Assembly (NCBI RefSeq): GCF_036226745.1
Contig: NZ_CP109013.1
Span: 1,240,001 to 1,304,000, forward strand
Reading direction: 5' to 3'
Length of the DNA stretch: 64,000 nucleotides
DNA from: Streptomyces sp. NBC_00683
Lineage (GTDB): Bacteria; Actinomycetota; Actinomycetes; Streptomycetales; Streptomycetaceae
Shown: in pieces, positions 26,690-42,525 of the stretch
Layout of the letters: every line of letters starts with the position of its first letter
How positions within the stretch are numbered: position 1 is the first letter of the stretch
Notes under the pieces: model-generated
Told to the model about the DNA's origin: nothing
Databases searched by the model: none
What the model saw: the letters and a program-made list of their open reading frames with translations, nothing else
Position numbers and translations under genes: made by a program

Positions 26690-27892
26690 ATGACACCCCA
26701 CTCCCCCGCCCCGCTCATCTCCCTGACCTGGACGGATCACGTCACGGGCCGCGAGGGTCACCTGGTCGTCGACCGGCTGGTGCGCGGAGTTTCCAGCGGC
26801 GGGCTGCGCATGCGGAAGGGGTGCACCCTCGACGAGGTGACGGGCCTCGCCCGTGGCATGACCATGAAGGAAGCACTGCACTACGACGCCGACGACGGAC
26901 AAGCGCGCTACATCCCCCTGGGCGGCGCCAAGGGCGGCATCGACTGCGATCCGCGGGACCCCGAGGCGTACGGGGTGCTGGTCCGCTATCTGCGGGCGGT
27001 GCGCCCCTACGTCGAGAGCGTCTGGACGACCGGCGAGGATCTCGGCCTCACCCAGGACCTCGTCGACCGGGCCGCGGCGGAGGCCGGGCTCGTCTCCTCT
27101 GTCCAGGCGGTCTTCCCGCTGCTCGACGACGAGGCGGCGGCCCGCGGGCGGCTGGCGGACGCCTTCGCCGTCACGGTGGACGGGATCGGGCTGGACGAGC
27201 TGGTGGGCGGGTGCGGGGTGGCCGAGTCCGTGCTCGCCGCACTGGACCGTGCGGGCGTCGCCCACAGCGGTGCCCGGGTGTCCGTGCAAGGGCTCGGCAC
27301 CATGGGCGGAGCGACGGCGCGCTTCCTCTCCCGGGCCGGACTCAGGGTCGTGGCGGTCGCCGACGTCAGGGGCACGATCGCCAATCCGGCGGGACTGGAC
27401 GTGGAAGGCCTGCTGGCCGCCCGGGACGCGTACGGGACGGTCGACCGGAGCGCCCTGCGGGAGGGGGACCACGAGCTGCCTGCCGACGCCTGGCTGACCA
27501 CCGACGCGGAGGTACTGGTTCCGGCGGCCGTCTCGTACACCGTCGACGAGGTGAACCAGGCCTGGATCAGGGCCCGTTGGGTGGTCGAGGCGGCGAACAT
27601 GCCGGTGCTGCCGGAAGCGGAGAAGCTGCTCGCCGCGCGCGGGATCACGGTCCTGCCCGATGTGGTCGTCAACTCCGGTACGAACGCCTGGTGGTGGTGG
27701 ACCCTGTTCGGCGACATCGGGGCCGACGCGGAGGAGGCGTTCGGGCACACCCGCCGCTCGATGCGCGCCCTGATCGACCTGATGCTGGCCCGCGCCGAGG
27801 CCGACGGCTGCACCCCTCGGGAGGCGGCCCACGCGATCGTCGCGGACCGGCTCCCGGTCATGGCGGAGCGGTTCGGCTGGTACGCGCGGTAG
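26690..27892 (+). CDS. Glu/Leu/Phe/Val dehydrogenase family protein
   Basis: 400 residues. The dimerisation/catalytic domain carries the glycine-rich lysine loop PLGGAKGGIDCDP and KEALHYDADDGQARYIP. The Rossmann domain has VSVQGLGTMGGATARFL and VVAVADVRGTIANPAGLDV; NSGTNAWWWWTLFGDI closes the active site. Family members oxidatively deaminate amino acids with NAD(P)+; the substrate is not decided here, and the four-Trp stretch is unusual. ATG 26690 has GAGGAG seven bases upstream. A strong terminator follows the gene at 27904. The TetR-type palindrome at 26648 suggests repression. Confidence 0.85.
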   Translation: MTPHSPAPLISLTWTDHVTGREGHLVVDRLVRGVSSGGLRMRKGCTLDEVTGLARGMTMKEALHYDADDGQARYIPLGGAKGGIDCDPRDPEAYGVLVRYLRAVRPYVESVWTTGEDLGLTQDLVDRAAAEAGLVSSVQAVFPLLDDEAAARGRLADAFAVTVDGIGLDELVGGCGVAESVLAALDRAGVAHSGARVSVQGLGTMGGATARFLSRAGLRVVAVADVRGTIANPAGLDVEGLLAARDAYGTVDRSALREGDHELPADAWLTTDAEVLVPAAVSYTVDEVNQAWIRARWVVEAANMPVLPEAEKLLAARGITVLPDVVVNSGTNAWWWWTLFGDIGADAEEAFGHTRRSMRALIDLMLARAEADGCTPREAAHAIVADRLPVMAERFGWYAR

Positions 27893-32552: not shown

Positions 32553-33554
32553 TCAGGTCTGGCGCAACGGGGCGTAGTCCTCGCCGTCGAGCCCGAACGT
32601 CCAGGCGACGCCCTCCTTCGCGGTCCTGGTCCGGGGCGGCACGCGCAGCCAGTACGTGCGGTGGCTCCCGTCCGGTTCGGGAGTGGAGTTGACGACTTCG
32701 ACCATCACGACGTCCTCGTCGCCCTCCAGCGCGATCTGCCAGAGGATGCCGGTCTCGTCGCGGTGCACGGGCTCGGCTCCCGACTCGGTGAGGTACCTGT
32801 CGTAGCCGTAGTACTCCAGCATCACGCGGCGCAGCTCCGCGTTCTCCTCGTTCCGGATCCGATCGGGGGTCAGGGTCGCCAGTCCGTCCAGGAATTCGGC
32901 GGGCACCGGCATGCCTCGCCAGGCATGGAGTGCGAAGCCGTCGCGATAGGCGAGCGCCGGGCCGTCGCCGCGGTCGAGCCGGCCCGCCTCGTCGCGGTGG
33001 AGCGCCACCGGCCGCTCGCTGATCACCACGGCACGCTCGTAGGGCCACCACCAGCCCGCGTTCCTCGCGACCTCCGCCAGTCCCGTCAGCCGCTCGCCCC
33101 GGCCGTCGAAGGCGGCGAGCCAGGCCGCGTCGTGCTGGCCGAGCACCGCGTCGAGCAGTACCAGACGTACGGCGGACTCGTCCTCGGGCCGCGTGGCAAG
33201 GTCCGTGACGATGCCGGTCCGTATCCGCTCGGCCAGCGCGGCCGTGGTCTCCCAGAGCTGAGCCCCGGTGGCGGACCACAGGGCGGACCAGCCGGCCGGG
33301 CCCAGCTCGTCGTACATCCGCCGCCGTTCGTCCGCCCAGGGGCGGGTGCGGACCTCTTCACGCACCGAGCGCCCCGCGTCCACGAGCTTCTCGACCGCCT
33401 CGACGGCCGCCCTGGGCGACTGTGCCCAGATGATGTGCTCGGGTTCGGCAAGTCCTGCGCTGCGGTAGGCACGCCGCACACCGTCCTCGGCGGCGCCCCG
33501 GTCCGCCTCGCCCGTCGCCGCCGCAACGGCCCGCCAAGAATTCACGTAACTCAT
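32553..33554 (-). CDS. DUF6745-like protein of unknown function
   Basis: 333 residues, no signal peptide or membrane segment. I recognise the actinobacterial DUF6745 pattern: WWWPYERAVVISERPVALHRDEAGRLDRGDGPALAYRDGFALHAWRGMPVP in the middle, and DRYLTESGAEPVHRDETGILWQI plus VMVEVVNSTPEPDGSHRTYWLRVPP towards the end. There is no known activity for the family. The C-terminal part is Trp/Tyr-rich and charged, and no catalytic motif stands out. It lies 88 bases downstream of a 108-residue gene on the same strand, and the two look co-transcribed. They are divergent from the STM4015-like operon at 34150. Confidence 0.75.
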   Translation of the reverse strand: MSYVNSWRAVAAATGEADRGAAEDGVRRAYRSAGLAEPEHIIWAQSPRAAVEAVEKLVDAGRSVREEVRTRPWADERRRMYDELGPAGWSALWSATGAQLWETTAALAERIRTGIVTDLATRPEDESAVRLVLLDAVLGQHDAAWLAAFDGRGERLTGLAEVARNAGWWWPYERAVVISERPVALHRDEAGRLDRGDGPALAYRDGFALHAWRGMPVPAEFLDGLATLTPDRIRNEENAELRRVMLEYYGYDRYLTESGAEPVHRDETGILWQIALEGDEDVVMVEVVNSTPEPDGSHRTYWLRVPPRTRTAKEGVAWTFGLDGEDYAPLRQT

Positions 33555-33642: not shown

Positions 33643-33969
33643 TCAGTCCGCGACGACACGGACGGCCCCCGGTGCGTACTCACGCTGACGCACGACGCGG
33701 AACCAGCCCTTCGGCAGCGCGATCACGGCGTGCTCCTCGTGCACCACGCGTCCCCCGTCGGGGAGATGGAGCAGCATCGGGCCGAAGGGTCCCGCCTCCC
33801 GGATGAGCCGGCCGGGACCCTGCACCGCGTGCGCGTGACCGGTGACTTCACCCAGCGCTAGGACCAGCCGCCCCCGCCCGTCGCGCAGTTCACCCGGTGC
33901 GTCGACGAAGCGTGCGGGCACCGCGGACTCGTCCAGTGCCACGATCAGTACATCGCCCTGCCGGTACAC
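33643..33969 (-). CDS. Small conserved hypothetical protein (108 aa), partner of the DUF6745 gene
   Basis: 108 residues, soluble. The sequence starts YRQGDVLIVALDESAVP and has LVLALGEVTGHAHAV in the middle and VVHEEHAVIALPKGWFRVVRQREYAPGAVRVVAD at the end. The two His clusters (GHAHAV, HEEHAVI) and the small beta-rich layout are characteristic of a family repeatedly seen next to DUF6745 genes. No function is known to me. ATG 33969 begins the unit; the next gene on the same strand is the DUF6745 gene. The gap of 180 bases to the divergent LRR gene should hold promoters for both. Confidence 0.7.
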   Translation of the reverse strand: MYRQGDVLIVALDESAVPARFVDAPGELRDGRGRLVLALGEVTGHAHAVQGPGRLIREAGPFGPMLLHLPDGGRVVHEEHAVIALPKGWFRVVRQREYAPGAVRVVAD

Positions 33970-34149
33970 AGAAGTCTCCCCTCCGTGACGGCACCCGCTG
34001 TGCCGGCCACGGTGAAAACGCTACGGCGCGGGTCTGACAGTCGGCCGCCGCCCGGTGGTGCGGCGGGCCCGCTCACGCGGCTGTCAGTGGGGCTTGATAC
34101 ACCTTGGCGGACATCAACCGTCCGTCCTCAGTTTCAGGAGCTCAGCACC

Positions 34150-35106
34150 ATGTCCCAGGTGAGCTATCTGCCCGAACTGCTCGGCCTACCGGCCGTCGAT
34201 TTCCAGCACGAGACCGACGCCGCCGTGCTGCCGGCAGCTGATGAGGCGGCCTGGCGCATCAGCGTCAACCCGTTCGATCCGGACGAGACCCACACCTGGG
34301 AGCAGGAGTTCACGGCCTTCCTCGACGCCGTCGATCCGGCCGGGGTGAAGGCACTGATCATCGGGCAGTGGGGCGAGACGTACGAGGAGGACTCCTCCTA
34401 CCCCGTCGGACTCGTCGTCGCGGCGGCCGACCGGCTGACGTCACTCGAAGCCGTCTTCGTCGGTGACCTGGAGATGGAGGACGCCGAGATCTCCTGGATC
34501 GAGCAGTCGGACGTCACCGCTCTCCTCACGGCCTTTCCCGCCCTGACCGAGCTGGGTGTGCGTGGTGGCACCGGTCTGCTGTTCCCGCCTGCCAAGCACG
34601 GGTGTCTGCGGGCGCTCACCATCGAGACGGGCGGCCTGCCCGCGGATGCGCTGCGCGGCGTGCTGGACAGCGAACTGCCCGCGCTGGAGCGCCTCGACCT
34701 CTGGCTGGGGGTCTCCGCGTACGGGGGCGACGCGGATGTGGCGGATCTGGCGCCGCTGCTCACCGGCACCCGCTTCCCCTTGATGCACCACCTCGGCCTG
34801 CGCAACAGCGAACTGCAGAACGAGATCGCGGCCGCAGTCGCCTCGGCCCCGGTCGTGGCACGGCTGCGCACGCTCGACCTGTCCTGCGGCACGCTCGGGG
34901 ACGAGGGCGCGGCCGCGCTGCTCGAAGGCCAGCCCCTCACCCATCTCACCACTCTCGATCTGCACCATCACTTCCTGACGGAGCCGATGGAGCGCCGCGT
35001 CGCCGAAGCCCTCGAACCGCACGGTGTGCGGGTCGATCTGACGGGGCGCAACGAGCCGTGGGGCGACCGGGGCGTCGAAGGCCGCTACACCGCGGTCGCG
35101 GAGTGA
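34150..35106 (+). CDS. STM4015-family leucine-rich-repeat protein, copy 1
   Basis: 318 residues, no signal peptide. The C-terminal half is a set of irregular leucine-rich repeats (LTELGVRGG, LRALTIETGGLP, LERLDLWLG, MHHLGLRNSELQNEIAAAV, LRTLDLSCGTLGDEGAAALL, LTTLDLHHHFLTEPM), which would form a curved protein-binding surface. The N-terminal 120 residues hold the family-specific AWRISVNPFDPDETHTWEQEFTAFLDAVDPAGVKALIIGQWG. This is the layout of the STM4015 family, whose role is not established. ATG 34150 has AGGAG nine bases upstream. It is the first of six tightly packed genes; the next starts 7 bases after its stop. Confidence 0.85.
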   Translation: MSQVSYLPELLGLPAVDFQHETDAAVLPAADEAAWRISVNPFDPDETHTWEQEFTAFLDAVDPAGVKALIIGQWGETYEEDSSYPVGLVVAAADRLTSLEAVFVGDLEMEDAEISWIEQSDVTALLTAFPALTELGVRGGTGLLFPPAKHGCLRALTIETGGLPADALRGVLDSELPALERLDLWLGVSAYGGDADVADLAPLLTGTRFPLMHHLGLRNSELQNEIAAAVASAPVVARLRTLDLSCGTLGDEGAAALLEGQPLTHLTTLDLHHHFLTEPMERRVAEALEPHGVRVDLTGRNEPWGDRGVEGRYTAVAE

Positions 35107-35113
35107 TGGCGCG

Positions 35114-36085
35114 ATGAGCGATATCGAGCACCCCGACACCTTCCACGGCCTTCCCGTCCTCACCCTGCCCCGTCCCGACGAGTCGCGTGCTGAGGTACTG
35201 CCCCCGGCGGACTCCGTGGCCTGGCGGCTGGACTGCGGCTGGGAGGGACTGACCTTTCCGGAACTCTGGCAGCACTTCCTCGACACGGTGGACACGTCCC
35301 GGATCCGGGCGCTGGTCATCGGCCCCTGGTGGCCGGACGACTACACCTCCCTCGCACCGGTGGTGGAGCGGATCGCCGCGGACGCGGGTCGCTTCACGGC
35401 CCTGCGCGCGTTGTTCTTCGCCGATGTCGTCGGCGAGGAGTGCGAGGTCTCCTGGCTGGAGATGTCCGACATCACGCCGCTGATCGATGCCTTCCCCCTC
35501 CTGGAGGAGCTGACCGTCCGCGGCGGCGGCGATTCCGTCCCGGAGCAGGAGAAGCTGCGGCTGCGGCCGGTGCGGCACCAGGCACTCAAGTCGCTGAGGT
35601 TCGAGTCGGGCGGCCTGCCCGGCCACGTCGTACGAGCGGTCGGCGCCTCCGAACTGCCCGCCCTGGAGCGGCTGGAGTTCTGGTTCGGCGCCGATTGGTA
35701 CGGCGGCGACGCCACGGTCGAGGACATGCGGCCCGTGCTGTCGGGCGGCGCGTTCCCCCGGCTGCGCCATCTGGGACTGCAGAACAGCGAGATCCAGGAC
35801 GAGATCGCCGCTGCGGTCGCCTCCGCTCCGGTCGTCGCCCAGCTGGAGTCACTCTCGCTCTCGATGGGCACCCTCAGTGACGCGGGAGCGCAGGCCCTCC
35901 TCGACGGTCAGCCGCTGACCCATCTGTCCTCGATCGACCTGCACCACCACTACCTCACCGAGCCGATGGCCTCCCGTGTCCGCGAACTGTGCGCCCGCTC
36001 CGGCGTACAGGTCGATCTCGACGAGGCGGAGGAATGGGATCCGGAGGACGAGGACGAGCCCCGCTATGTCGCGGTCAGTGAATAG
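35114..36085 (+). CDS. STM4015-family leucine-rich-repeat protein, copy 2
   Basis: 323 residues, paralogous to the preceding gene through its whole length: AWRLDCGWEGLTFPELWQHFLDTVDTSRIRALVIGPW, SWLEMSDITPLIDAFPLLEELTVRGG, LERLEFWFGADWYGGDATVEDM, HLGLQNSEIQDEIAAAVASAPVVAQLESLSLSMGTLSDAGAQALL, SIDLHHHYLTEPM. The C-terminus is acidic (EEWDPEDEDEPRY). The duplicates differ in the exposed variable positions, so they may recognise two partners. Its 3' end overlaps the next gene by 20 bases. Cytoplasmic; probably a recognition or scaffold subunit for the two radical-SAM enzymes of the operon, which is inference. Confidence 0.85.
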   Translation: MSDIEHPDTFHGLPVLTLPRPDESRAEVLPPADSVAWRLDCGWEGLTFPELWQHFLDTVDTSRIRALVIGPWWPDDYTSLAPVVERIAADAGRFTALRALFFADVVGEECEVSWLEMSDITPLIDAFPLLEELTVRGGGDSVPEQEKLRLRPVRHQALKSLRFESGGLPGHVVRAVGASELPALERLEFWFGADWYGGDATVEDMRPVLSGGAFPRLRHLGLQNSEIQDEIAAAVASAPVVAQLESLSLSMGTLSDAGAQALLDGQPLTHLSSIDLHHHYLTEPMASRVRELCARSGVQVDLDEAEEWDPEDEDEPRYVAVSE

Positions 36086-37211
36086 CGCGCCGCCGCGCCT
36101 CGCGGTCGTCGGCAATCCCGGCAACCGCAGGGTCAGCCTCTTCCACGACGCCGTTCGTGCTGCCGGACTGCCCAGGGCGCGCACCGTGTCCTGGCTGGAG
36201 GTGCTGGGCAAGGACGCGGTCTTCCTTCCCGGCGAGACCGTGCGCATCGACTCGCCCGGTGAGGACGCCGAGGTCGAGCGGTTGCTGCGCGGGGTCGACG
36301 ACCCGACGAGGGTGGAGGGGTCGGCCCGCTGGTACGCCGGGTTCACCTCCGCCGTTCGGGACGTGGCCCGCGCGGCGACAGCGGCGGGCGCTGTTCTGCT
36401 GGACGACCCCGAGGACATCGCGGTCATGTTCGACAAGCGCCTCTGCCACGGCGTGATGGAGGCTGCCGGGGTACCCGTGCCGGCTTCGCCGACGTCCGGG
36501 CCGATGGCACCTGCCGTGCGCGGCTGGGCGGATGTGCGTGACCTGATGGCCGGGCACCGTATGCCGCGCGTCTTCCTGAAGCCCGCGCACGGATCCTCCG
36601 CCTCCGGGGTACTGGCCCTGGAGACGGCGGGCCGCGGCCGGGTGCGGGCGACGACCTCCGTCGAGCGGGACGAGGAGGGACGGCTCTTCAACTCGCTGCG
36701 GGTGCGGCGCTGCACGACGGAGCGCGAGGTGGCGGCGATCGTCGACACGCTCGCGCCCGACGGGCTGCACATCGAGCGCTGGCTGCCCAAGGCGTCCTTG
36801 CGGGGACGGGTGGCCGACCTCCGGGTCGTGGTCGTCGCGGGCCGTGCGACGCACGCCGTCGTGCGGACCAGCCGCTCCCCCATGACCAATCTGCATCTGG
36901 GCGGGGCACGCGGCGATCTCGACGAGGCGCGGGCCGCGGTCGAAGCGGCCGGCGCCGACTGGAGCGAGGCCCTCGCGGTGTGCGAACGCGCCGCCGCCTG
37001 CTTCCCGGACACGCTGTGCGTGGGCGTCGATCTGCTGCCCGCCACCGGCTGGCGGCGCTTCTCCGTCGGCGAGGTCAACGCCTTCGGGGATCTCCTGCCA
37101 CGCCTCACCGGGCTGCCGGGAAGCGGCGCCGAAGGCCTGGACACCTATGCGGCGCAGGTCGCCGCCGTACTGGACCGAGCAAGGAACGACCGTGCCGTCA
37201 CTGCCCCCTGA
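36066..37211 (+). CDS. STM4014-family ATP-grasp-like protein
   Basis: 381 residues. A Rossmann-like start (RLAVVGNPGNRRVSLFHDAVRAAGL) leads into an ATP-grasp-like core: DKRLCHGVMEAAGVPVPASP, PRVFLKPAHGSSASGVLALE with the nucleotide-binding Lys, and VGVDLLP...VGEVNAFGDLLP with metal-ligand-type acidic/Asn residues. RimK/glutathione-synthetase relatives join a carboxylate to an amine using ATP, so it may ligate an amino acid or peptide; the substrate is unknown. ATG 36066 lies inside the end of the LRR gene; GTG 36078 is an alternative. The C-terminus overlaps the start of the sulfatase-fold gene. This matches the order of the STM4011-STM4015 system. Confidence 0.82.
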   Translation: MSRSVNSAPPRLAVVGNPGNRRVSLFHDAVRAAGLPRARTVSWLEVLGKDAVFLPGETVRIDSPGEDAEVERLLRGVDDPTRVEGSARWYAGFTSAVRDVARAATAAGAVLLDDPEDIAVMFDKRLCHGVMEAAGVPVPASPTSGPMAPAVRGWADVRDLMAGHRMPRVFLKPAHGSSASGVLALETAGRGRVRATTSVERDEEGRLFNSLRVRRCTTEREVAAIVDTLAPDGLHIERWLPKASLRGRVADLRVVVVAGRATHAVVRTSRSPMTNLHLGGARGDLDEARAAVEAAGADWSEALAVCERAAACFPDTLCVGVDLLPATGWRRFSVGEVNAFGDLLPRLTGLPGSGAEGLDTYAAQVAAVLDRARNDRAVTAP

Positions 37212-38043
37212 ACCCACGTCCGCCGTCGACATGAACGAGATCGTGGGCAGCCACGATCTGTTGCTCGTCACCCTGGACACGCTGAGGTACGACGTCGCCG
37301 AGGAGCTCGCCGCCGCCGGCCGCATCCCGAACCTGGTCCGGCACCTGCCCGGGGGCACGTGGGAGAAGAGGCATGCACCGGGCAGCTTCACCTACGCCTC
37401 GCACCAGGCGATCTTCGCCGGTTTCCTGCCGACGCCCGCTTCGCCGGGCCCGCACCCCCGGTTGTTCGCGGCGCGTTTCGCCGGCAGCGAGTCCACGGCG
37501 GACGGCACGTTCGTCCACGACACCCCCGACCTGCTCTCCGGTCTCGCCGCCGTCGGCTACCGCACCGTGTGCATCGGCGGAGTCGGCTTCTTCAACCGCC
37601 GCCCGCCCCTCGGTTCGGTGCTGCCCGGGATGTTCCAGGAGAGCCACTGGGAGCCGGAGTTCGGTGTCGCCTCACCCACCTCCTTCGAGGCCCAGGTGGC
37701 ACGCACCGAACAGGTCGTCGCCGAACTCCCCGAGGACCAGCGGCTGTTTCTTTTCGTCAATGTGTCGGCACTGCACCAGCCGAACTGGTTCCACCTCCCC
37801 GGGGCCACCGCCGATGCCGGTGACTCCCGGGCCACCCATGCCGCGGCCCTGGAGCACGTGGACCGGCACATCGGGCGTCTCTTCGCCGCCGCGAGCAGCC
37901 GCCGCCGGTGCTTCGCGATCGTCTGCTCCGACCACGGCACGGCCTACGGTGACGACGGGTACACCGGTCACCGGCTCGGTCACGAAGCGGTCTGGACCGT
38001 GCCGTACGCCCATTTCCTCCTCGATCCGGGGGCATCTCGATGA
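37192..38043 (+). CDS. STM4013-family sulfatase / alkaline-phosphatase-fold hydrolase
   Basis: 283 residues. The start of the domain (MNEIVGSHDLLLVTLDTLRYDVAEELA) shows the first metal-binding Asp pair of the alkaline phosphatase superfamily, HAPGSFTYASHQAIFAGFLP gives the Thr/Ser nucleophile region, and AIVCSDHGTAYGDDGYTGHRLGHEAVWTVPYAHF carries the DHG...H ligands. Such enzymes hydrolyse phosphate or sulfate esters or transfer phospho-groups; the substrate is not known. GTG 37192 is preferred because AAGGA precedes it by about 7 bases; ATG 37231 is an alternative 13 codons in. The stop overlaps the next ATG (ATGA). Confidence 0.82.
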   Translation: MPSLPPEPTSAVDMNEIVGSHDLLLVTLDTLRYDVAEELAAAGRIPNLVRHLPGGTWEKRHAPGSFTYASHQAIFAGFLPTPASPGPHPRLFAARFAGSESTADGTFVHDTPDLLSGLAAVGYRTVCIGGVGFFNRRPPLGSVLPGMFQESHWEPEFGVASPTSFEAQVARTEQVVAELPEDQRLFLFVNVSALHQPNWFHLPGATADAGDSRATHAAALEHVDRHIGRLFAAASSRRRCFAIVCSDHGTAYGDDGYTGHRLGHEAVWTVPYAHFLLDPGASR

Positions 38044-39404
38044 CCTTCACCAACAGCACCGGGCCCTACCGGAGTTACGTCTACGCCTATCCGCACAAGA
38101 CGGCCTACCGCCCGCTCGCCGGTCACCCGGCCGGGCGGCCCCTGCTGCGCGAGCTGTGGGCGGCCGAGCCGAAGGACGCGCTCTCCCTCTATCTCCACAT
38201 ACCGTTCTGCGAGATCCGCTGCGGCTTCTGCAACCTGTTCACCCGGATCGGCGCCCCCGATGAGCTGACGACGCGCTACCTCGACGCACTGGACCGGCAG
38301 GCCACCGCGGTCCGGGACGCCCTGGGCGACGAGGAGCAAGTACGTTTCGCCGCCGCCGCGTTCGGCGGTGGCACTCCCACGTTCCTCACCGCCGGCGAGC
38401 TGGAGCGGCTCTGCGACATCGCGGAGAAGCGGATGGGCGCCGACCTGCGGTCCGTACCGCTGTCGGTCGAGACCTCGCCGGCGACGGCGACGGCGGACCG
38501 GCTGGCCGTTCTCGCCGATCGCGGGACCACCCGGATCAGCATCGGTGTGCAGAGCTTCGTCGACGCGGAGGCCCGCGCCGCGGTCCGCCCGCAGCACCGG
38601 TCCGACGTGGAGGCCGCCCTCGGCCGGATCCGCGACGCCGGCATCCCGGTCCTCAACATCGATCTCATCTACGGCATCGAAGGACAGACCGAGGAGAGCT
38701 GGCGCACCTCACTGGACGCCGCCCTGGCCTGGCGTCCCGAGGAGCTCTACCTCTACCCGCTGTACGTGCGCGCCCTCACCGGTCTCGGGCGGCAGGGAGC
38801 GGCGGCCGGGGCAGCGGACGGGGCGGACCCCGCCTGGGACGAGCAGCGGCTGCGCCTCTACCGCGCGGGCCGCGACCACCTCCTGGCCCACGGCTACGAG
38901 CAGGTGTCGATGAGGATGTTCCGCCGCACGGGCGCGCACCCGGCGGGCCCGGACGACTACGCCTGCCAGACCGACGGCATGATCGGGCTCGGCTGCGGCG
39001 CCCGCTCGTACACCTCCTCGCTGCACTACTCCTTCGACTACGCGGTGGAGATGCGCGAGATCCGGGGCATCATCGACGGCTTCACGGCCACCGAGGACTT
39101 CTCGCGCGCCGAGGTCGGACGGTACGTCGACGGCGACGAGGCGCGCAGGCGCCACCTCCTGCAGTCGTTGCTCCAGGCCGAGGGCATGCACCACGACGGA
39201 TACCGCGAGCGCTTCGGCACCGACCCCTTCGGGGACTTCCCGGGGGAACTCGGCGCCTTCGAGGAGCGCGGCTGGCTGGACGGGGCCGCGGGCCCCGGCC
39301 TGCTGCGGCTCTCCCCCGAGGGCCTCGCCCACTCCGACGCGCTGGGCCCCGAGCTGTTCTCCCCCGCCGTACGGGCCGCGATGGCCGCGTACGAAGTGAA
39401 ATGA
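38040..39404 (+). CDS. STM4012-family radical SAM protein (HemN-like)
   Basis: 454 residues. The [4Fe-4S]-binding cysteines are in YLHIPFCEIRCGFCNLFTR (Cys57, 61, 64). The HemN-like barrel follows: AAFGGGTPTFLTAGELERL, SVETSPATATADRLAVLADRGTTRISIGVQSF, VLNIDLIYGIEGQTEESW. The C-terminal part resembles the HemW/HemN accessory region. Despite the likeness to coproporphyrinogen oxidase/HemW, STM4012 proteins form their own family of unknown reaction. It would cleave SAM to start radical chemistry, perhaps on a product of the other operon enzymes. ATGA overlaps at both ends couple it to its neighbours. Confidence 0.88.
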   Translation: MTFTNSTGPYRSYVYAYPHKTAYRPLAGHPAGRPLLRELWAAEPKDALSLYLHIPFCEIRCGFCNLFTRIGAPDELTTRYLDALDRQATAVRDALGDEEQVRFAAAAFGGGTPTFLTAGELERLCDIAEKRMGADLRSVPLSVETSPATATADRLAVLADRGTTRISIGVQSFVDAEARAAVRPQHRSDVEAALGRIRDAGIPVLNIDLIYGIEGQTEESWRTSLDAALAWRPEELYLYPLYVRALTGLGRQGAAAGAADGADPAWDEQRLRLYRAGRDHLLAHGYEQVSMRMFRRTGAHPAGPDDYACQTDGMIGLGCGARSYTSSLHYSFDYAVEMREIRGIIDGFTATEDFSRAEVGRYVDGDEARRRHLLQSLLQAEGMHHDGYRERFGTDPFGDFPGELGAFEERGWLDGAAGPGLLRLSPEGLAHSDALGPELFSPAVRAAMAAYEVK

Positions 39405-40339
39405 GCCCTGTGACGCCGACGCCTGCGGACCTGACGATCCTGTACCGGGGCCCGCTGGCGTCGTGCGACTACGACTGCCCCTACTGCCCGTTCGCCAAGC
39501 GGCGGGACAGCGGGGAGCAACTGCGCGCCGACCGTGCGGCTCTGGAACGGTTCACGGCGTGGGCCGCCGCTCAGACCGGCGAGCGGTTGTCGGTGCTCTT
39601 CACGCCGTGGGGCGAGGGGCTGGTCCGGTCCTGGTACCGGCACGCTCTCGTCGAGCTGTCCCGGCTCCCGCACATCGGCCGGGTCGCCATCCAGACCAAT
39701 CTCGGCGGCCGCACCGGCTGGCTGGCCGATGCCGCACGGGACAAGGTCGCCCTGTGGTGCACGTACCACCCGGGCCAGACGCCGTACGAGCGGTTCCTCG
39801 GCAGGTGCCGGGAGCTGACCGCCCTCGGGGTCCGTTACAGCGTCGGTGTCGTGGGGCTGGACGCCCATCTCGACGAGGCCCGGCGACTGCGCGAGACGCT
39901 GCCCCCTGAGGTGTACCTCTGGGTCAACGCCGCCGAGGGGCACACGTACACGGACGAGGAGGCGGACCGCTGGACGGCCCTGGACCCCCTGTTCCCGTAC
40001 AGCCGGCATCCGCACCGCTCGGCCGGGATGCCCTGCCGGACGGGTGAGTCGGTCGTCTCGGTGGACGGCGACGGCACGGTGCGCCGCTGCCACTTCGTCC
40101 GCGCCGAGCTCGGCAACCTCTACGACGGCAGCTTCCGGCGCTCGTTGGGTCCGCGTGGCTGTCCGCTCGATGTGTGCGACTGCCACATCGGCTATGTGCA
40201 CCTGGAGACGCTGCCGTTGTACGACGTCTTCGCGGGCGGAGTGCTGGAGCGGATACCCGCGGGCCCGGTACGGGTACCTACCGCGGACACGCTCCGTGGA
40301 GCGGTACCGCGGCGCTCGCTGCCCGTCGTCACTCGCTGA
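39401..40339 (+). CDS. STM4011-family radical SAM protein with extra C-terminal cysteines
   Basis: 312 residues. The SAM cluster motif is CDYDCPYCPFAKR (Cys22, 26, 29). The partial TIM barrel continues (FTPWGEGLVRSWYRHALVELSRLPHIGRVAIQTNLGG, KVALWCTYHPGQT). A second cysteine-rich segment near the end (MPCRTGESVVSVDGDGTVRRCHFVRAELGNLYDG, then GCPLDVCDCHIGYVH) looks like a SPASM/twitch-type auxiliary cluster site, as in peptide-modifying radical SAM enzymes. Last gene of the operon, coupled by ATGA and followed by a strong terminator. Its substrate is unknown; peptide or protein modification is a reasonable inference. Confidence 0.85.
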   Translation: MSPVTPTPADLTILYRGPLASCDYDCPYCPFAKRRDSGEQLRADRAALERFTAWAAAQTGERLSVLFTPWGEGLVRSWYRHALVELSRLPHIGRVAIQTNLGGRTGWLADAARDKVALWCTYHPGQTPYERFLGRCRELTALGVRYSVGVVGLDAHLDEARRLRETLPPEVYLWVNAAEGHTYTDEEADRWTALDPLFPYSRHPHRSAGMPCRTGESVVSVDGDGTVRRCHFVRAELGNLYDGSFRRSLGPRGCPLDVCDCHIGYVHLETLPLYDVFAGGVLERIPAGPVRVPTADTLRGAVPRRSLPVVTR

Positions 40340-41404: not shown

Positions 41405-42343
41405 TCAGATGGAGACGCCGTGCGAGCGCAGGTAGGCGATCGGGTCGACGTCCGAGCCGTAGCTCGGGCCGGTGCGGACCTCGAAGTGGAGGTGCGGGCC
41501 GGTGGAGTTGCCGGTGGACCCGGAGAGGCCGATCTGCTGGCCGCCGGTGACGGTCTGGCCGGCCGAGACGCCGAGGGACGACAGGTGGGCGTACTGGGAG
41601 TACATGCCGTCCTCGTGCTGGATGACGACCTCGTTGCCGTACGCACCGCTCCAGCCCGCGGAGACCACGGTGCCCGGGCCGATGGACCGGACGCTGGTGC
41701 CGGAGGCGGCCTGGAAGTCGGAGCCGGTGTGGTAACCGCTGGACCAGCTGGCACCGGCGACGCGGTACTGGGTGGAGACGCTGGCGTTGGCCACCGGGGT
41801 GGTGTAGCCGGAGCTGTTGCTCTCCGAAGCACCGGTGGTGTCGGCGGCGTTGGTGGCCGTCGACGCCTTCTCGGCCGGAGCGGCGGCCTTCGGGGCCGAC
41901 TCCGCCTTCGAGGGGGCGGCCTTGGAGGGAGCGGCCTTGGGCGCGGACTCCGTGGTGGAGCCGGATGCCTTGACGCCGAGGGTCAGCTTCATGCCCGGGA
42001 AGATCAGGCTCGGGTTGTCGCCGACGACCTCACGGTTGTCCTTGTACAGCTTCTCCCAGCCGCCCTTGACCTTCTTCTCGGCCGCGATCTTCGCCAGATA
42101 GTCACCGGCCACCACGGAGTAGGTCTTGGATGCGCTCTGCTTCTTCGCCACGGAGGCGGCCGGCGCGTGGTGCGCCGCACTGGCCGCCGCGGGCTTGGCG
42201 GCGGGCGCGGACTGCTCCGCGGCGAAGGCGCCGGTGGCGCCGATCAGCGGAAGGGCGAGGACGGCGCCGCCGGTCCCTGCGGCGAGGACGCCGCGGGAGA
42301 TCGGGCTGGCCTTCGTACGACGGTGCTTACCCTTTGCGGGCAT
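41405..42343 (-). CDS. LysM-M23 peptidoglycan endopeptidase
   Basis: 312 residues. A basic, hydrophobic signal peptide (KHRRTKASPISRGVLAAGTGGAVLALPLIGATGAFAA) is followed by an Ala-rich linker. A LysM domain comes next (KTYSVVAGDYLAKIAAEKKVKGGWEKLYKDNREVVG ... FPGMKLTLG), then an Ala/Lys/Ser-rich spacer. The C-terminal M23 domain has zinc ligands in GYHTGSDFQ and GPHLHFEVRTG. It would cut peptidoglycan cross-links outside the membrane during growth or germination. ATG 42343 follows AGAGGAA. The 5' leader carries a ydaO-type c-di-AMP riboswitch, the usual control for such hydrolases in Streptomyces. Confidence 0.93.
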   Translation of the reverse strand: MPAKGKHRRTKASPISRGVLAAGTGGAVLALPLIGATGAFAAEQSAPAAKPAAASAAHHAPAASVAKKQSASKTYSVVAGDYLAKIAAEKKVKGGWEKLYKDNREVVGDNPSLIFPGMKLTLGVKASGSTTESAPKAAPSKAAPSKAESAPKAAAPAEKASTATNAADTTGASESNSSGYTTPVANASVSTQYRVAGASWSSGYHTGSDFQAASGTSVRSIGPGTVVSAGWSGAYGNEVVIQHEDGMYSQYAHLSSLGVSAGQTVTGGQQIGLSGSTGNSTGPHLHFEVRTGPSYGSDVDPIAYLRSHGVSI

Positions 42344-42360
42344 GGGGAATTCCTCTCCGG

Positions 42361-42525
42361 CGCCTGCGAGGTGAGCTGTCGGGTTCGGACTGGAGATGCC
42401 CGGCCGCGCTGAGCGCGTCTTGACCCCAAGCCGTTCCGGATCACTCCGGTCGGCGGCTTACCTGGTTCCCCCGCTCCTGCCACACGTGAGTCGGTGCGGA
42501 TTCCGGGCGGCGGCAGGATTAGGCG
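42361..42525 (-). promoter_or_regulatory. ydaO/yuaA c-di-AMP riboswitch
   Basis: On the minus strand the leader holds conserved ydaO blocks in order: CGCCTAATCC at the 5' end, GGAGCGGGGGAACCAGG, TGGGGTCAAGACGCGC, and CCGAACCCGACAGCTCACCTCGCAGGCG at the 3' end. CGCCT (42521-42525) pairs with AGGCG (42361-42365) as helix P1. It ends 17 bases before the start of the LysM-M23 gene. The class binds cyclic di-AMP and normally switches expression off, linking wall lysis to c-di-AMP and osmotic state. Confidence 0.9.

Follow-up and report, generated by a model that had tools for sequence, protein, structure and literature searches.

An STM4011–STM4015 operon of Streptomyces whose enzymes probably act on the tail of their leucine-rich repeat partner protein

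The 64,000-nucleotide stretch analysed here (the window) covers positions 1,240,001–1,304,000 of the 8.52 Mb, single-contig chromosome of Streptomyces sp. NBC_00683 and carries, at 34150–40339 on the forward strand, a complete STM4015(×2)-STM4014-STM4013-STM4012-STM4011 operon. It encodes two leucine-rich repeat (LRR) proteins of the STM4015 family, a probable ATP-grasp ligase (STM4014), a hydrolase of the alkaline phosphatase superfamily (STM4013), and two radical S-adenosylmethionine (SAM) proteins (STM4012 and STM4011). The tail of the LRR partner protein is the probable site of action of this enzyme set. In its fuller form, the proposal is that the LRR protein serves as substrate or carrier, that its terminal Glu is extended by STM4014, and that the radical SAM and phosphatase-fold enzymes act on the attachment; it is favoured here by a slight balance, because the terminal Glu is invariant and STM4014 resembles ligases acting on protein C-termini. 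The set occurs in several phyla, yet the literature searched (openly licensed PMC papers) gave no function and no functional study of it. Its gene and family names appear as one table entry each in the available parts of PMC3844500 and PMC2784778, and the gene set is not dealt with in the available parts of the ATP-grasp surveys PMC8939145 and PMC4431377. An invariant terminal residue together with a ligase of known acceptor type turns an uncharacterised operon into a directly testable question. If the proposal is true, LRR proteins are to be added to the small number of scaffolds known to carry bacterial biosynthesis at a C-terminal residue.

The invariant C-terminal glutamate

LRR1 (34150–35106, +; 318 aa), the upstream copy, ends in ...GRYTAVAE, and LRR2 (35114–36085, +; 323 aa), the downstream copy, ends in ...PRYVAVSE. 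Their tail codons, RYTAVAE and RYVAVSE, occupy 35083–35103 and 36062–36082 and are followed by stop codons at 35104–35106 and 36083–36085, respectively. Generally, the C-terminus of the LRR protein consists of a variable acidic linker and then R-[YF]-x-x-[VLI]-[TGSA]-E-stop. A terminal Glu is present in all 142 LRR open reading frames (ORFs) of operon loci, a count that sets trans and orphan LRR loci aside: 79/79 from a contig scan with STM4011, 15/15 from 11 plasmid-collection records, 46/46 from 23 further genome loci, and 2/2 in the window. Among 129 distinct LRR ends, 123 fit R[YF]xx[VLIAYM][TGSA]E, and the six others (two from Salmonella and one each from Bacteroides, Methylobacterium, a Paenibacillus, and one Nonomuraea copy) all terminate in Glu. 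Only R(−7) and E(−1) are near-invariant within the tail, and the terminal Glu is the strictest position of the LRR protein. Tyr at −6 is an unlikely site of chemistry, since Phe replaces it in 23 of the 129 distinct ends. The C-terminal residues of the other four operon proteins vary over the loci compared.

The tail is also found in a solved relative of STM4015, 2RA8 (Q64V53_BACFR) from Bacteroides fragilis, which matches with an E value of 3.2e-78 and takes Foldseek rank 1 for the LRR model (that of LRR2 has a predicted local distance difference test score of 92.5). Its aligned tail, ...YPMITE, stops eight residues short of the chain end, and these last eight residues are presumably a purification tag. 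Compared with the window LRR proteins, 2RA8 is ~75 residues longer at the N-terminus, where the STM4015 protein of Bacteroides finegoldii (L064:4513–5586) has a WGR domain (PF05406).

Five Streptomyces genomes contain an LRR gene without system-type STM4013 (G422, G459, G420, G460, and G484). The assembly of G422 is fragmented; an intact STM4011 is located on another contig, and the LRR tail is intact. G459 is uninformative: its operon is decayed, with STM4011 split over two frames, STM4014 broken, and a partial LRR match containing a stop in the linker. For G420, G460, and G484, the LRR matches run from position 1 to 277, 288, and 286 of 290, respectively, and the terminal Glu is lost in all three; the searches made in them, for STM4014 and STM4011, gave only weak or broken matches. 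In the LRR tree, G420 and G484 are sister branches, and therefore there were at least two independent Glu losses, not three. LRR genes away from the operon in operon-bearing genomes kept the terminal Glu in 4/4 cases (G161, G446, and G496 twice), these four being a part of the extra copies. A wider tail table has 151 of 154 rows ending in Glu, the exceptions being the three orphans; in this table, G459 was removed by the coverage filter, and L014 and L169 list the same two genes twice.

The STM4014 ligase and the proposed mechanism

STM4014 extends from 36066 (ATG) or 36078 (GTG) to 37211 (+) and is assigned as an ATP-grasp protein, probably a ligase, by NCBIfam and by fold. Fold comparison places it closest to LysX/ArgX, tied with RimK. 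LysX/ArgX and RimK act on the C-termini of other proteins. A PDB profile search with STM4014 yielded weak RimK/LysX matches among 46, a single-sequence PDB search gave nothing useful, and the score for the RimK family TIGR00768 was 24.8 bits, under the cut-off of 143.4.

In the proposed mechanism, STM4015 would have three parts, namely a recognition body made of LRRs, an acidic linker that is flexible, and the short tail R-[YF]-x-x-[VLI]-[TGSA]-Glu-COOH. STM4014 would activate the terminal Glu carboxylate with ATP and attach an amino acid or other amine, and then STM4011, with its SPASM/twitch-like auxiliary domain, and STM4012 would modify either the tail or the residue attached to it. STM4013, with its phosphatase/phosphodiesterase fold, might handle a phosphorylated group, as might the HAD phosphatase in Salmonella and Bacteroides. 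The role of the LRR body would be to hold out the tail to every enzyme of the set, and two LRR genes would provide two carriers for one enzyme set. Glu as the acceptor, the order of the steps, the added group, and the release of a product are what we infer from these comparisons. A more specific version is put forward tentatively: the LRR protein may be an amino-group carrier, on which a small amine is placed at the C-terminal Glu via a LysX-like ligase and remodelled there by the two radical SAM and the phosphatase-fold enzymes, before its release or its retention as a protein-bound cofactor. Read this way, the operon would stand for a new class of carrier-protein biosynthesis.

Several observations weigh against the LRR protein as carrier or substrate. 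The Z margin of LysX/ArgX/RimK over DcsG and glutathione synthetase is ~2, and Foldseek ranks DcsG 4 and the graspetide ligase PsnB 6, both ahead of RimK at 16. The ATP-grasp fold of STM4014 is common to ligases of free metabolites; its best PDB profile match is an inositol-phosphate kinase (E 4.4e-4), and its best Pfam matches, which are below cut-off, are YheC/D-like and sugar-transfer ATP-grasp. A GSxAxG loop is present in 109 of 112 STM4014 sequences, and it probably corresponds to the loop that bears GSWGR in LysX; at this loop, the GSWGR motif by which LysX/ArgX recognise LysW was not found. Likewise, the EDWGE end and zinc site of LysW are absent, LRR1 and LRR2 having two and three scattered Cys, and there is no releasing peptidase among the operon genes. 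The sample of Glu losses is small, with at least two independent events, and comes from orphans for which STM4012 was outside the search. The three orphan LRR genes may be decaying genes, and little can be drawn from G459, a fourth genome lacking an intact operon, whose decay is general. Finally, the invariant tail could be a docking signal.

If the tail served docking only, the enzymes would bind the LRR protein there, and the LRR surface would bring a separate protein or peptide target, as the first-pass annotation of this DNA had suggested. LRR folds usually bind proteins; moreover, a docking motif would be short and anchored, as the tail is by its Arg, aromatic residue, and Glu, and the linked S108 and DUF6745 proteins (see below) could be targets. 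However, no separate target was seen near all operons: neither S108 nor DUF6745 appears in the available DNA of the loci from Paenibacillaceae, Salmonella, Undibacterium, and Acaryochloris. A docking motif also need not stop at an invariant terminal Glu, whereas a LysX/RimK-like ligase would need exactly that. Docking as the sole role of the tail is considered unlikely. Of the earlier suggestion, protein modification is retained as likely, but the evidence does not favour the LRR surface as the holder of a target, given the invariant tail Glu and a ligase resembling those that act on protein C-termini.

Operon organization and the other enzymes

Family membership of the operon is confirmed and far beyond chance, all six proteins exceeding their NCBIfam cut-offs. 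LRR1 and LRR2 (copies A and B in the LRR tree) score 375 and 383.6 bits with NF038076 (STM4015; cut-off 275), and a genome-wide search found them to be the only STM4015 genes. The other scores are 472.6 bits for STM4014 (NF038074; cut-off 175), 423.5 bits for STM4013 (NF038075; cut-off 250), 633.6 bits for STM4012 (NF006067; cut-off 380), and 412.2 bits for STM4011 (NF038073; cut-off 200). LRR1 and LRR2 are 7 bases apart, and LRR2 overlaps STM4014 by 20 bases (ATG 36066) or 8 bases (GTG 36078). STM4013 starts either at GTG 37192, preceded by AAGGA at 37181–37185, or at ATG 37231, where the family model begins and which leaves a gap of 19 bases after STM4014. The STM4013/STM4012 and STM4012/STM4011 junctions are ATGA overlaps of 4 bases each. 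Accordingly, the first-pass annotation, which had the six genes overlapping or within 7 bases, is right for the junctions generally, and for STM4014–STM4013 only with the GTG 37192 start. Its matching of the set to the STM4011–4015 families, its duplicated LRR subunit, and its HemN-like radical SAM protein and radical SAM protein with extra C-terminal cysteines all stand.

STM4013 (37192 or 37231 to 38043, +) was assigned by NCBIfam and conserved residues. Numbered from ATG 37231, residues D16, T54, H182, D198, D234, H235, and H251 make up the full alkaline phosphatase superfamily set, which is conserved in at least 98% of 113 sequences and in nearly all of 16 second-clade sequences; Thr54 would be the nucleophile. 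A PDB search returned a single weak phosphodiesterase match (E 0.0035). The second STM4013-like clade, 44–48% identical where matched, occurs in another recurrent Streptomyces operon (L052:9461–12842 and L053–L061), consisting of genes for a MoaA-like radical SAM protein, a dTMP-kinase-like protein, a ~160-aa unknown, and the STM4013-like protein; a NUDIX gene adjoins it in L052. No LRR gene was seen near this operon in L052–L061, the family tests covering L052 only. Further STM4013-like hydrolases (L047–L050; G653, two places in G479, and G535) lie near a gene that looks, by eye, like a sugar-nucleotide nucleotidyltransferase gene, and ten Agrobacterium plasmid records (H29–H38) contain a distant sulfatase-like relative of 26–27% identity.

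STM4012 (38040–39404, +) bears the radical SAM motif C57-x3-C61-x2-C64 and was assigned by NCBIfam and conserved residues; besides its likeness to HemN, it has a match to the radical SAM methyltransferase NocN. STM4011 (39401–40339, +; NCBIfam) bears C22-x3-C26-x2-C29, and beyond this triad there are five conserved Cys (212, 230, 254, 259, and 261). Its C-terminal part matches SkfB.

An ATP-grasp protein together with a SPASM-type radical SAM enzyme is reminiscent of pathways to ribosomally synthesized and post-translationally modified peptides (RiPPs). In such a pathway, the LRR protein would be an oversized precursor, and the radical SAM enzymes would crosslink or trim its tail, with a short peptide being released. 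The SkfB match of the STM4011 auxiliary part and the presence of PsnB among the fold matches of STM4014 are in line with this. Nevertheless, the core would be ~8 residues long, of which R(−7) and E(−1) alone are near-invariant, the aromatic residue being Phe in 23/129, and the operon genes include no peptidase or transporter. A RiPP-like pathway is judged improbable. For graspetide or grasp-with-SPASM RiPPs in particular, no NCBIfam model of these families was listed for STM4014 at E ≤0.01, no search for tiny precursor ORFs being made, and PsnB stands among its fold matches.

Distribution of the gene set

The same order of the five genes is found in Actinomycetota, Bacillota, Deinococcota, Pseudomonadota, and Cyanobacteriota, and partially in Bacteroidota. 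Wherever all five genes were found, as in the window, the order 4015-4014-4013-4012-4011 on one strand was identical; thus, the gene-order comparison that the first-pass annotation had called for found clusters sharing all components in several phyla, and the case in which homologous clusters never share them did not occur. The contig scan with the STM4011 alignment is a sample of 80 loci kept from the matches listed, which were ranked by likeness to a Paenibacillus protein. Among these matches were 57 Paenibacillaceae loci, 20 actinobacterial loci (Streptomyces and Nocardia), and one each from Armatimonadetes, Undibacterium, and Acaryochloris. An LRR gene is present at 78 of the 80, the other two (L132 and L136) being contigs of ~8 kb. 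Plasmid-collection records with the same order came from Salmonella (two), Paenibacillus, Deinococcus (three), Methylobacterium, and Nonomuraea; in one of two Embleya records of this collection, STM4014 is not seen. The genes in Bacteroides finegoldii are STM4015, STM4014, an STM4013 fragment, and STM4011 fused to a HAD domain (L064:6965–8530; the fused domain was named by eye). A HAD gene follows the operon in Salmonella; the next gene downstream of the window operon is on the opposite strand and is not that HAD gene.

Within Streptomyces, the gene set is present in ~130 of 295 genomes sampled, and an LRR match was found in just 6 of 396 genomes sampled across the phylum, five of the six being Streptomyces. 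Of the 295 genomes, 128 have both LRR and system-type STM4013, 5 have only LRR, 2 have only STM4013, and 160 have neither. This count dropped three sub-cut-off LRR genomes of 136 (G444, G526, and G621) and 19 of the 149 with an STM4013 match, these being weak or of the second clade; G459 was kept as LRR-positive although below cut-off, and G476, G501, and G517 were scored STM4013-positive on partial matches.

The co-occurrence bears on whether STM4011–4014 make a free small molecule, with the LRR protein as a sensor or partner and not a substrate. In other systems, enzymes of such kinds have small molecules as substrates, a distant clade of STM4013 belongs to a different radical-SAM/kinase operon with no LRR gene seen nearby, and DcsG and glutathione synthetase are close to STM4014 in fold. 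Yet LRR and STM4013 are rarely apart in Streptomyces (128 both, 5 + 2 single), and the strictest site of the LRR protein is its terminal residue. A small-molecule product of this kind is held to be no likelier than a RiPP-like peptide.

The two LRR copies

A single LRR gene is found at 77 of the 78 LRR-bearing loci among the STM4011-scan matches listed, although a second LRR match is common in Streptomyces, being present in 58 of 136 genomes. In an LRR tree of 102 rows, with ~1 in 8 Paenibacillaceae kept, LRR1 falls in a group made up exclusively of upstream copies (12 rows, support 100/100; wider group of 20 upstream copies, 90/88), and LRR2 falls in a group of downstream copies only (12 rows, 100/97; wider group of 21 downstream copies, 99/91). 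Because upstream and downstream copies group separately, the pair was inherited within Streptomyces. Some tandem copies (L195, L014, and L199) group with single copies, and the pairs in Deinococcus (two of three records), G204, and Nonomuraea arose separately, so duplication took place several times over; G542 has four copies. Every LRR copy seen at operon loci keeps the tail. With the LRR protein as carrier, the duplicate genes read as extra carriers. The first-pass annotation had taken two diverged copies to suggest two targets or a heterodimer; this need not follow, given the single copies at nearly all scanned loci, the repeated duplications, and the tail kept in all, but two specificities or a heterodimer are possible.

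Linked genes and surroundings

Two upstream genes are linked to the operon and were absent from the gene set of the first-pass annotation, which was therefore incomplete. S108 (33643–33969, −; name coined here), the divergent neighbour, encodes 108 aa with GEVTGHAH and HEEH motifs and the C-terminus QREYAPGAVRVVAD. Adjoining it, the DUF6745 gene (32553–33554, −; PF20530, 392.4 bits) encodes a protein ending in DYAPLRQT. Of 130 Streptomyces genomes with system-type STM4013, 113 have S108; of the 165 without it, 1 does, namely G422, in which the operon is distributed over contigs. From the 117 genomes with an S108 match, three (G434, G508, and G551) were dropped as weak or broken, and including them gives 4/165 without STM4013. 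The S108–DUF6745 pair also stands beside the operon in Deinococcus and Nonomuraea (convergent, downstream) and in Methylobacterium (same strand, upstream). It is found at 17 of the 20 actinobacterial loci of the STM4011 scan, one of the remaining three being a short contig, and at 0 of 57 Paenibacillaceae loci within the available flanking DNA. The C-termini of these two proteins are conserved as well: the last residue of S108 is Asp in 45/47, and DUF6745 ends in [QE][TA] in 42/45. Both have PHROG relatives of unknown function. The Deinococcus DUF6745 protein (L066:7893–8894) has an N-terminal LRR-like segment, with weak matches to LRR effector families, replacing the actinobacterial N-terminus.

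S108 and LRR1 are separated by a divergent intergenic region of 180 bp (33970–34149, from gene coordinates), possibly a shared promoter region. A scan for sigma-70 promoters and terminators found none, including sigma-70-type promoters in this region, and an Rfam scan gave no match inside the operon. Downstream of it, a c-di-AMP riboswitch (RF00379, 60.4 bits) lies at 42348–42506 (−), ahead of a LysM/M23-like peptidase gene (41405–42343; named by eye), and the only tRNA in the window is tRNA-Ser (gct) at 27573–27665 (+). When flanking ORFs were clustered by blastp with the operon families, S108, and DUF6745 removed, the groups listed as common to phyla, at most 25, looked generic, wrong-frame, or low-complexity. 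A defence system was considered and rejected, PADLOC giving one weak match to the STM4012 radical SAM core (26.5 bits); a phage origin was also rejected, the six operon proteins having no PHROG match at E 0.001.

Comparison with known systems

The window set shares family membership and gene order with the STM4011–STM4015 records of Salmonella, Paenibacillus, Deinococcus, and Methylobacterium, but differs in its two LRR genes and the linked DUF6745–S108 pair. With RimK, which glutamylates the C-terminus of RpsF, the likeness lies in an ATP-grasp ligase of near-equal fold score that acts on a protein C-terminus; the window system differs by its dedicated LRR partner, its two radical SAM enzymes, and a score far under the RimK family cut-off. 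LysW/LysX and ArgW/ArgX resemble it in the ligase of closest fold (tied with RimK) and in a partner ending in Glu. However, LysW is described in the available part of PMC10433800 as a small carrier with zinc-binding cysteines and an EDWGE end, whereas the partner in the window is an LRR protein of ~320 aa; radical SAM and phosphatase-fold enzymes take the place of the lysine/arginine enzymes, and no releasing peptidase is seen.

None of the six operon proteins matches a PEARL (LanB-like) ligase in NCBIfam or Pfam at E ≤0.01. Pearlins (3-thiaglutamate and 3-thiahomoleucine), as presented in the available part of PMC9303977, employ a tRNA-dependent PEARL ligase and a peptide carrier, in contrast to the ATP-grasp protein and LRR protein of the window. 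The likeness is in the logic: in pearlin formation, the carrier peptide receives an amino acid at its C-terminus, and this residue is remodelled there, in one case by a radical SAM enzyme.

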